Source: Polymyxa betae
Lineage: Eukaryota > Endomyxa > Phytomyxea > Plasmodiophorida > Plasmodiophoridae
DNA: 64,000 nt
Reading direction: 5' to 3'
Assembly (NCBI GenBank): GCA_003693705.1
Contig: RBZT01000125.1
Span: forward strand, 434,001-498,000
Shown: one piece after another, positions 47,783 through 52,800 of the stretch
Numbering within the stretch: position 1 is the stretch's first letter
How the letters are laid out: the number at the start of each line of letters is the position of its first letter
Notes under the pieces: generated by a model
Told to the model about the DNA's origin: nothing
Seen by the model: the letters and a program-made list of their open reading frames with translations, nothing else
The model's database searches: none
Translations under genes and position numbers: made by a program

Positions 47783-49693
47783 TCAGCACTTGACATTCTG
47801 GCAACGCGAATCCGACCCGGGAGCTATAGCGTTCCCGACACAGATTGTCCCGAGAGCAACCCGAAGCTTGCCAGCAGATGCACCGTCCTTGCAGATATGG
47901 AAGTTGCAGGAGCAATCGCCTGGATCGCATGCAAGGCCGCTGGCAATACCGGAACAGACGTTGCCACTAGGAGGACCGGGAGGTGGTGGCTGGGTCGGCG
48001 AAGGTGTTGGTGGTGCCTGGGTCGGCAAAGGCTTTGGAGGCGGTGCCTGGGTCGGCGAAGGCTTTGGCGGGGAGTTATTCTTTGCAAATCTGGCTCCCTG
48101 CAAGATCCAGTTACGAAAATGGTTGATCTGCTGCATAGACAGGTATGGTCCACCGAGAGGCATCTGCTGCCCAGATACACCGACACCATTGGTCAGCTTC
48201 AGTATAATATAGCTGTTATCAGGATCTCCAGGCTTCACATAGACCTTGCTGGGTTGGCCAACTGATGGTTTGTTGATCAGATTGGCATATGCAGTCTCTG
48301 GATCAGGCATGCGAAGCAGGGTCCAGCCATCGGGAGCGGATACATGAACACCACCACGAGCCTGGATGATGGGCCAAATATCCTCTAAGAAATACACTGG
48401 TGTGGCTGGAGCAGGGGTCGGTGCTGGCGTTGGTTGGGGTGTTGGGTTGCCACCTGAGCCACAGTAATCGCGTCCTGTTCCACAGAAACTAAACCCAATT
48501 CTTGTTAGATCCCGTAGTGGATGATCAGAAAAACCGACCTGAATCTTGAGCAGCATTCGCCAGGCTTACATGGGGCATCCGCAAAGCCAGGGCCACATCG
48601 TCCATCCGTTCTAATAGGCCCTGAGCCCGGTGATGGTGTTGGGGCTGGAGCTGGTGTTGGAGCTGGCAGAGGAGCTGGTGTTGGGGCTGGGTTACTGCCG
48701 ACAGGTTGCTTGCCTCCTTCGCGTGTAGTCAATCCGGTCTTTGCAGACACCCAGGCCACCTCATCTGACGATGTCGGTATAGGGATGCCGACTTCGTTGC
48801 CCGAATTCGGGAATGGCCCGTTCAGGCATGGTTGGTTAACACAAACTCGCAGCTGCCGGGTCACACCAAACTTGCAAACGTCTTTGTCTGGATGCTGTTT
48901 TGTCGGAATGTGATATCGGTTGCATCGAATCGAGAGATTACCATACCGACACATCGCCACCGTAGAATACTGGCTGTAGATAGGGTCCGGTAGGACCCCC
49001 TGTAATCTCATAATCTGCACATGAATAGTAATCACCAAGAATAGATGGATTCGATGTTCCTCCAAACCACTGTGCTATGAATCAGAAGTAATTTCGGTTC
49101 TGACTATGGCAAACTTACCGCCCATTGAAGAGTGACCCTTCCATTGGGAAGATGTAATGGGATCCCCAACCGAAGCTTGCAAGGATTGACGCTGCCATCT
49201 TGAGGATTGTTATCACCGCCGTTCAAAAATTTCGTCGCTGAGCGGCATCCAGGACCGGTCTCGTAACACGAATATGCTTGGACACCTAGATCGAAAGCCT
49301 TATGGCTGCCCGATTGATCGAACGTTGTCCAGGCATATCGTACAAATCCACCGGGATGGTTATTTCGCGGCCATCTGATGCAGAAATTATTGGGCAGTCC
49401 CTCTCGCTTTCATTACAATAGGCATTACTCAACTGAGATGAGGTCACCACGTTTTGCTTGATGAATGACTCCTAATCGAACATCAAAAACTGATAGAAAC
49501 AGATAAGTTGTGACTCAGTGCCTAGCCTGGTTTTGGGGGCATCGCACGGCCCGGTACAGCTCGGCCCACGGCAGCCAGATTGCGCGACCGATTCGAATCG
49601 TGATGACGGTTTAGTCATGTAGCTATGTGCAGTAATACAAGATGGGAGCCATATTACAAGAACAGATAGAAAAATCAGACGCATAACTGTCAT
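47783..49693 (-). CDS. secreted LPMO-like protein fused to CBM18 and a haem-less cytochrome c-like domain
   Basis: Six exons, complement(47783-48488, 48539-48894, 48947-49069, 49119-49402, 49451-49471, 49522-49693), close to 553 residues. A signal peptide (1-22, ending CITA) is followed at once by His23 (HSYMTKPSSR), the N-terminal His of a copper histidine brace. The second His is H80 in IRWPRNNHPGGFVR, and WFGG with GDYYSCADYEI (160-181) completes the lytic polysaccharide monooxygenase-like core. A hevein/CBM18 module (300-328, CGPG..CCSRFSFCGTGRDYCG) sits between Pro/Thr linkers. Residues 350-453 match planctomycete-type cytochrome c folds (DIWPIIQAR, VYVKPGDPDNSYI, QQMPLGG, NWILQGA). The CxxCH haem site is replaced by RGGVHV. 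A Pro-rich linker and a Cys-rich C-terminus end the protein. The first intron uses a GC donor. Likely role: oxidative attack on chitin or a related wall polymer. Confidence 0.82.
47990..48065. repeat. imperfect tandem repeat coding the Pro/Thr linker
   Basis: The unit gcctgggtcggcgaaggctt, with minor changes, recurs about three times on the plus strand. It encodes repeated PTQAPP-type segments in the last exon of the LPMO-like gene. Such linker repeats expand and contract by slippage. Confidence 0.7.
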
Positions 49694-49837: not shown

Positions 49838-52800
49838 TTAAGCAGGGGCAACAGCTCCCTTAAACTTAAGTCCTTCTACAAATTTACCCATCTCAATAAC
49901 GTCGCTGATAACAACAGATGACGGGGCATCATAGTCAACGGATCGAGAGGTTGGATAATTGTCATCAGGAACAAGTTCTAGCCTGGTCGGTATCCGGAAA
50001 AGTTGCGACATTGACGGCGCTAATTCAAAACAATTCTGGAATAGGCTTCGGCGCCCGAATATATAAAGCCCTGAAATATGGATGAGAGAACGGAAATTAA
50101 CAGAGGAGACATTCAGAACCTAGTCTCGCTCGGGAAAGCGCGACGACAAGACGGCGTACATCTCGAATGTGACCAATATTACGGGTTCTGACAAGCGATA
50201 GCAATATGATATCGTTTTGCTGGCCTTGGAAGCGATCAACTGAAAAGCAGCGCAATGAATATTCAGCTTGTAAAGTGATGCGGAACTGACCAGTTGCCAC
50301 TTTATGAGGCAGACCAATATGGCGGCATCGTGCATTGAAAATGTCACGCAGCAGCTGCTTTTGGCCGTTATAAGTTGTAATTACAGATATGCGAGATGCA
50401 GGATAGCCAATAAGGCGAAGGTACATATACCTGTGTCTGATAAGACCCAAAGAAAAAGCATACAAAATCGATCACGATACAGTTGCACAACATATTCGGC
50501 CTCGCCAAGATTCTGATAGAAGTGGGGCGTTGGCTGTGATTCGCCCTGATTCATGTAATCAGGTACATCAATGAACTGATGAGTGAAACGCATCCCCGCA
50601 TTAGCAAGAAGATAATCCCCTTGCATGACCGAAGGCATATCTTTGAGATTAGGATATCGCCATTTGTACAATGATGCAATATTTGGCCGGGTTCGACCCT
50701 ATATAAGGTTAAACCGAGGAAATTTTTTTCACTATGGTATGGACCTGAAAATTTAATTCAACGAAAGGAATTCCAAGTCGAACAAAGCGTGCAAAGAGAG
50801 ACTGGTCAAGACGTGAGAATGACTGCAGCACTTGGCTTTGGACGATCGGAGGAAGCTGCCGATGATCACCGAGAAGAATAGCTCTTTTCAATAGACAACC
50901 AAATTCTTAACCTGAACTAAGCGAAAAGTAGGGCTCGATTGAACAAACCACCGACCTGGATCAGCTTTCTGTAGCAGAATCGGAATGCAAGTTTCGATGT
51001 CTAAAACTTGTCCTGCTTCTTCCATGATCATAGTGTGAAACCGGAATCTGAAGGTGTTACTTAAAACGAAACCTGGCGGAAATATTCAGTTGTCCAACCC
51101 GTTTCGGATGAAGTCTTGTCGCTTCAAGGACGCATGTGTACAGGTCATCGCTACAATTCGAGCATGCTTCATCACCAAATAGTCGGCGCGATCCGATCCT
51201 ATGAACAGCGTTCATGTAGGCACAGACAGCAGTACCAGATATCGTACCTTTTCGTAATACCTCGAACGATCTGCATTCCCGCAGCTGCATAAAGATCCTG
51301 TCAAGATGAGCAAAGCAGCGATCAGCCGTTGCAGAGTATTCAGAATCATCCTTTTCGGGGAACGTCGTGTTAGAAAAATATTGAAGAAACGGGAAAGTGG
51401 AATCCCCGGATTGAAGTTCCCTACAGAAAAAAATGAGAAAGAAAACACAGCATACTTCACTGGTCATACTTGTATTCTTTGATTTTGGGTTGAATCGTAT
51501 GCTTGTAGAACATCTCAGCAGCGTCGCAGCTAGATGCTGGCAGCATAGGTTCAACGCCTAAAGTATGAGCAAGAATTCGGACTTGATCTAACAGCATCAT
51601 CCGGCGAGCTAGCATAAAATCGATACGACCACGAGAACTGAAATCAGTCTCCACAAAGCCTGTATCCGACGATTCACGTATCTTCCGTAAGTCTTTATGA
51701 CCTTGACCTAAATCACACAATAAGTCAAATGTTCTGCAGTGTGATCGGAAAACCCCAACCCAGCCGCAGCATCAGCGAGGGATCGATATCCCGACGGCAT
51801 AGCTTATCAAACAGATCATTCAGGGCATGATTGCTATGCGTTACCAACAAAATACGCTCATGCGGATATTGATGGTGCAGGTTCACGATAATCTGCACAG
51901 CGACATCCGTCTTTCCGGTTCCGGGCGGCCCGACAATCAGCGTCAGACCGGGCTGACAGCCCGAAACGATCGCATCTAACTGCAGCCAAAGTTAATTTGA
52001 AATGAGAATGATTAGGCAATGGGGGGTACCTGATTGGGCGTGTAACGAATCGGGTTGCGCTGATTTGGGCTGTAATAAGTCATAGATGCAGACAGATACG
52101 GTTCACATCGGGCTGAGAGACGGTTGCCTTCAGCAACAGGATGGACATCCTCAGTTCTAGTAGCAGGTTCAGCACCGTCAGTATCGGTCATGGCTTCGGG
52201 TTGATCGTGGTCAGCTCGCTCGTTCTCGTCCAGGAGCCGCTCGATCAGCTCAGCTTTCCTTCCAGACGTCTCCTTGCCCTGACGCTTCAGCATCTTACGA
52301 AGCACAACAACCTGAAACGATCATGTAGGAACCCGTAAATCACATCGCCGTTTTTGTTACAGTAAGCTGCTTTAATTCATCGCGAGTATGACTCGGTTGA
52401 GAAGACGATTCTGGATCCGGCTTTTCAGTATCGGTTTTGGAGCCTTCTGCGTCATCGGTATGGACCGCCTCAGTCCCGTCGTCAGCGATTTGGGCTTGAG
52501 CCGAGTCGATCTTGATATTTTTTGGAATGTGTAAGCGATACGGAGGACCGTGACAGTCCTTGACGTCAATGTTTAGCTGAGGGAAACATTCCACAAGATG
52601 TTGCTCATCGAGGCAAGTATCATGCAGATTGAGGCACTGCAGGGAATTCGGCAGATTCCAATAGCATGCCTGATCTGGAGCTCCATATCCCAGAAACACC
52701 TAATAATATTTCATAAAAGGAAAAATTAAGACCCCCCCCCCCATAGCGATTACTTCTTTAAGCCAATCAGGAACGTCCAGATCCAGTTGCATCATATCGC

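Follow-up and report, generated by a model that had tools for sequence, protein, structure and literature searches.

How does a relative of bacterial c-type cytochromes come to lie in a secreted enzyme of a eukaryote, and what can it do there without the residues to which haem is attached? The question is raised by a gene of the plasmodiophorid Polymyxa betae that occupies positions 47783..49693, on the minus strand, of a 64,000-nucleotide stretch of contig RBZT01000125.1 (positions 434,001 to 498,000; assembly GCA_003693705.1), referred to below as the window. The answer favoured here, which we consider reasonably probable, is that the gene encodes a secreted copper lytic polysaccharide monooxygenase (LPMO) with a CBM18 module and a relative of bacterial cytochrome c that serves as a haem-free accessory module.

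One gene of six exons

Splicing of six exons (49693-49522, 49489-49429, 49374-49119, 49069-48947, 48894-48539 and 48488-47783, the last including the stop codon) yields an open frame of 557 amino acids, at exactly the coordinates given in an earlier, sequence-only reading of the locus. Introns 2-5, of 54, 49, 52 and 50 nt, are all of the GT-AG type; the junctions of exons 2-4, which lie in the enzyme core, are consistent with a 12-row family alignment, and intron 5 agrees with a related sequence, P0001. Intron 1 as modelled (49490..49521) is uncertain, being unusually short (32 nt) and of the GC-AG type; it is either real or a hint of a different end of exon 1. Its placement touches residues near 57, and the residue numbers used here are about 3-4 above the earlier ones. 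The encoded protein is predicted to be secreted: residues 1-22 (49628..49693), a run of hydrophobic residues adjoining the invariant His23, were read by eye as the signal peptide.

The CBM18 module, between the core and the cytochrome-like domain (residues 303-335; 48452..48600), is split by intron 5 (48538-48489). Exon 5 alone scores 13.1 bits with PF00187, whereas exons 5 and 6 spliced together score 28.7 bits, marginally above the cut-off of 27.8. Because the module passes the cut-off only once the two exons are joined, core and cytochrome-like domain belong to one gene. The module previously placed at C300-C328 is present, its limits having shifted to 303-335. P0001, a 161-aa protein from a 504-nt public contig, starts with RMLFQIQV, compared with RMLLKIQV at the end of exon 5 of the P. 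betae gene read in the wrong frame; next come a segment that differs between the two in sequence but not in length, FCGTG.DYCG and the cytochrome-like domain. We read this as the same intron in the same position, and the end of CBM18, the intron position and the cytochrome-like domain are common to both sequences. Two separate head-to-tail genes, their fusion a product of misread exons, would accord with the non-canonical intron 1. Arguing against this possibility are the requirement of CBM18 for both exons, the identical CBM18-to-domain junction in P0001 and the location of the gene on a contig of at least 498 kb; it is regarded as extremely improbable and was set aside, as CBM18 runs across exons 5 and 6. 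Bacterial contamination was ruled out by the introns and the length of the contig.

A cytochrome c relative in exon 6

The cytochrome-like domain, delimited by homology searches and alignments, comprises residues 353-460 (48077..48400). A search with exon 6 returned 64 proteins with E-values of 1e-3 or lower, the strongest of which, P0001 aside, reached 9.1e-22, and the homology to cytochromes is therefore far above chance; a region search returned 14 proteins, 10 of them new. The domain had been proposed at residues 350-453, and its homology, though not its limits, holds, as does the retention of PGDPDNSY, MPLGG and WI..GA, which are common to the domain and its bacterial relatives. These relatives, for example P0002-P0064, are bacterial domains near PSCyt1 that have PGDPDNSY...K(L)...MPLGGPYLS...WI..GA in common with the P. 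betae domain (phmmer E-values down to 9e-22) and that possess C-x(2-4)-CH, whereas the P. betae domain contains no cysteine and has a four-residue insertion. PSCyt1 (PF07635) matches 8 of the 12 members of alignment A3 at E ≤ 0.1 (best 0.0013); neither it nor any other Pfam family matches the P. betae domain. The best hits of exon 6 among PDB sequences (E 0.56) and of the exon pieces among NCBIfam models (E 0.45) are unrelated. In three bacterial proteins (P0080, P0081 and P0074), two to four cytochrome-like copies lie between Ig-like, Big or CopC-like stretches, and their haem motifs range between CxxCH and CxxxxCH.

In the P. betae genome the cytochrome-like exon occurs once. A query with the bacterial domain hit only this gene (E 1.7e-17) and, at the level of chance, L009 (E 0.08). 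Scans of the same genome with PF07635 and PF16010 gave no match, but with silent controls, so that no weight is placed on absence in them. Among prokaryote genomes seven loci were found; six of them, from Pseudomonadota, Acidobacteriota and Gemmatimonadota, carry the haem motif, and the seventh (L016) proved to be a false match. In a tree of 90 rows from which the haem motif was masked, P. betae and P0001 are joined at 100/99. The pair stands beside two Acidobacteriota at 89/54, in a tree that does not resolve its placement among the bacterial rows and whose bootstrap had not settled.

Loss of haem attachment

Residues 353-460 contain no cysteine and hence none of the motifs CxxCH, CxxxCH and CxxxxCH. 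For this reason thioether-bound haem is excluded under any alignment, and covalent attachment through another motif was likewise ruled out. At the position of the haem-attachment motif the P. betae protein has QARGGVH (residues 365-371; 48344..48364). In an ungapped alignment CxxCH is replaced by QARGG (365-369) and in P0001 by QERGS; aligned to CxxxxCH relatives, the place of the motif is taken by QARGGVH, which would keep His371. In global pairwise alignments with 81 bacterial copies, the P. betae sequence had QARGG at the motif in 28 cases and was shifted in 29, and its His371 fell on the motif His in 7; the corresponding numbers for P0001 are 47 for QERGS and 14 for the His. The loss of CxxCH had thus been recognized correctly from the sequence, with QARGG or QARGGVH taking the place of the RGGVHV named as its replacement.

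For a census of the motif, a profile of the post-motif part only was scanned over 89 proteins and the 6 bacterial loci; as the profile was built from motif-bearing copies, the set leans to close relatives. Among the 91 hits, one (P0038) begins too late to be scored and 90 have at least 35 residues upstream, of which 88 contain C-x(2-4)-CH (77 CxxCH, 2 CxxxCH and 9 CxxxxCH). The motif is missing from P0001 and from the third of the P0080 copies, the latter a weak hit (E 0.014) with CDPCH just outside the scanned stretch. Thirty-six columns reach a conservation of 90% or more among the 81 copies; 23 are kept in P. betae and 16 in P0001, beyond whose end 4 of the columns lie. By manual count, the P. 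betae domain keeps 3 of the 11 strongly conserved columns before residue 390 and 20 of the 25 after it. The loss, as judged from these columns, is concentrated at the haem-attachment end of the domain. Met432 (48161..48163) stands at the usual place of the distal Met ligand, in a column that is Met in 99% of the 81 copies and Lys in P0001. Common to P. betae and P0001 are the four-residue insertion, with the pattern G-W/F-T/A-L/I-L-R/P-M-P, its Met383, and His371.

The domain might be a passenger in slow decay, acquired by a chance fusion, never functional in the host and drifting while the LPMO remains active. This would agree with the disappearance of the haem motif from both sequences, of the Met from P0001, and with PVDHD instead of PGDPD in P0001. 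It is nevertheless unlikely, given a frame that is open across the whole exon, the conserved columns kept after residue 390, and an identity of 66-67% between the domains of two diverged sequences in which the preceding linker has changed in length.

Alternatively, His371 and one Met (Met432 or Met383) might bind haem in the absence of thioether bonds, and this haem would pass electrons to the tethered copper centre. The His and Met383 common to both sequences and Met432 at the usual ligand place are in line with such a b-type relay, as is the observation in bacteria that CjX183, once reduced, can by itself set off LPMO activity (passages of PMC8981238). The relay is made unlikely by the Lys in P0001, by the few alignments that place His371 on the motif His and by the T. 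turnerae X183 domains, which, in the passages available from PMC10916295, gave electrons to O2 rather than to an LPMO. Binding of copper or another metal by His371 and Met residues, which would feed or protect the LPMO site, could likewise draw on the common His371 and Met383. Two soft ligands offer little ground for this, no metal-protein family matched the domain in family searches, and we hold it to be very unlikely. A bolder version, in which the cytochrome c domain from bacteria was remodelled into a relay, with haem b or copper on His371 and Met383, to give a chitin oxidase with a tethered electron source, is decidedly unlikely. The previous proposal of a repurposed module is thus upheld in part: a haem-free accessory module is preferred, and non-covalent haem and another metal are retained as its rivals.

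The LPMO-type core and its accompanying modules

The sequence predicts a secreted, copper-dependent LPMO. The core, which extends from residue 23 to residue 234 and is encoded by exons 1-5 (48805..49627), was recognized by a family alignment, a profile search and the model of the relative P0065 with its structure matches. Invariant in 12 of 12 rows of the alignment are His23 (49625..49627) and the His of NNHxGG, His84 (49356..49358), the first and second His of the predicted copper brace, and Tyr177 (49028..49030), the first Tyr of DYYSC and the predicted axial Tyr, which aligns with the Tyr of AA11 YMNCA in the HMMER alignment. With cleavage predicted before His23, the mature protein would carry the N-terminal His and the second His of the LPMO superfamily. 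The histidine brace right after the signal peptide and the GDYYSC motif had been seen before and are borne out by the alignment; the second brace His is conserved but has the number 84, not 80, under the revised intron 1.

The LPMO fold was found in the model of P0065 (52% identical, mean pLDDT 65), whose 49 matches in Foldseek (E ≤ 0.001) and 50 rows in VIA are of the LPMO type by title, some of them counted under names that we take to be synonyms, such as GH61, CBM33, GbpA and CBP21. This comparison, made on the model of a relative, agrees with the earlier assignment of the core. Closest to the core are fungal LPMOs of AA11 (and AA9), for example 4mah, 7p3u and 9exj, but they are remote in sequence: the AA11 profile match has an E-value of 2.1e-5, the P. 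betae core alone reaches 0.01-0.02, and no Pfam LPMO model matches the spliced P. betae protein. The AA family of the core is not assignable because AA9 ties with AA11 by Z. A single-sequence genome search with the core, which distant paralogues would escape, found only the gene's own exons. Twelve core relatives (P0065-P0073 and P0075-P0077), mostly metagenome sequences, include 2 with a weak Pfam AA9 match (best E 0.049) and 1 with a DUF7492 match (5.3e-5); as a group they are LPMO-like, yet they reach no more than weak levels with Pfam's models of LPMOs. In P0066 and P0067 further C-terminal modules follow the LPMO-like core.

PF00187 has 13 matches across the P. betae genome, 8 of them above the cut-off. 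The genome also has a radial-spoke match and matches resembling chitin synthase, the latter from a scan whose control rang in 4 of 14 genomes as well, all of them bacterial; taken alone, these would suggest a flagellated fungus. CBM18 likely directs the LPMO to chitin, which the protein is predicted to attack by oxidation. At the C-terminus lies a module of about 60 residues with eight cysteines (residues 498-557; 47786..47965), absent from the sequence-only reading. It matches no Pfam family, has a single location in the genome and is possibly a binding module of an undescribed kind.

Comparison with known cytochrome-LPMO systems

Among fungi, LPMOs are served by the secreted AA8 cytochrome domain of cellobiose dehydrogenase, which has a b-type haem and an unrelated fold. 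Closer in architecture are Cbp2D of Cellvibrio and TERTU_2913/3803 of Teredinibacter (X183, X132), in which, according to the passages available, cytochrome c domains are tied to carbohydrate-binding modules, as in the P. betae gene (PMC8981238, PMC10916295). As described there, these domains carry CxxCH, and those with a solved structure contain bound haem, whereas the P. betae domain lacks the motif; the LPMO tested in those passages is a separate protein, whereas the P. betae core is tethered, and the likeness is one of description. The X183 and X132 chains are not in the structure lists used, which shows no absence. CjX183 is described as reducing LPMOs (passages of PMC8981238); by analogy, the donor of the P. 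betae domain could have had such a role, and without haem the domain of the host would not use the same route. In the open-access literature, judged from titles and starts of abstracts among the matches listed and with most subscription journals outside, no fungal LPMO joined to a cytochrome-c-like domain was found.

Surroundings of the gene

Ten other open frames of the window, a minor part of its frames, were scanned with Pfam. Five matched (leucine-rich repeats, GST, dual-specificity phosphatase, phosphoglucomutase and the N-terminus of a cation ATPase), and no carbohydrate-active enzyme was named among these five. The open frame 50709-50906 on the minus strand contains a motif that presumably recalls superfamily 1 helicases; two neighbouring pieces are without a Pfam match.

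Proposed origin and meaning of a probably haem-free domain

As stated in the excerpt available of PMC11727520, the haem lyase HCCS, which is System III, is active in the intermembrane space of mitochondria; Systems I and II belong to prokaryotes, and System I is retained in some mitochondria. In the P. betae genome two stretches match the haem lyase PF01265 above the cut-off, and PF01578, whose control rang in 8 of 14 genomes, was not found. A domain secreted through the endoplasmic reticulum (ER) therefore likely never meets a synthase, and we infer that the absence of this contact, together with the burden of free CxxC thiols in the ER, explains the loss of haem.

In the model that follows from the preferred haem-free accessory module, a bacterial cytochrome domain would have been inserted behind CBM18 in an ancestor of the host and the source of P0001. 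On the eukaryotic secretory route, without cytochrome c synthase, it would have stayed without covalent haem, and its thiols, likely a burden in the oxidizing ER, would then have been lost. The shared four-residue insertion may offset part of the lost haem packing. In the least certain step, the domain would now not relay electrons but bind substrate, the cell wall or a partner, or act as a spacer for one of them. Binding of glycans may be such a role, one that no result obtained here demonstrates. If this model is right, it reveals the fate of a bacterial cytochrome domain on a eukaryotic secretory route: the haem-attachment end goes and the remainder stays. The gene makes it testable whether a haem-free relative of a cytochrome can gain a role in the handling of polysaccharides.
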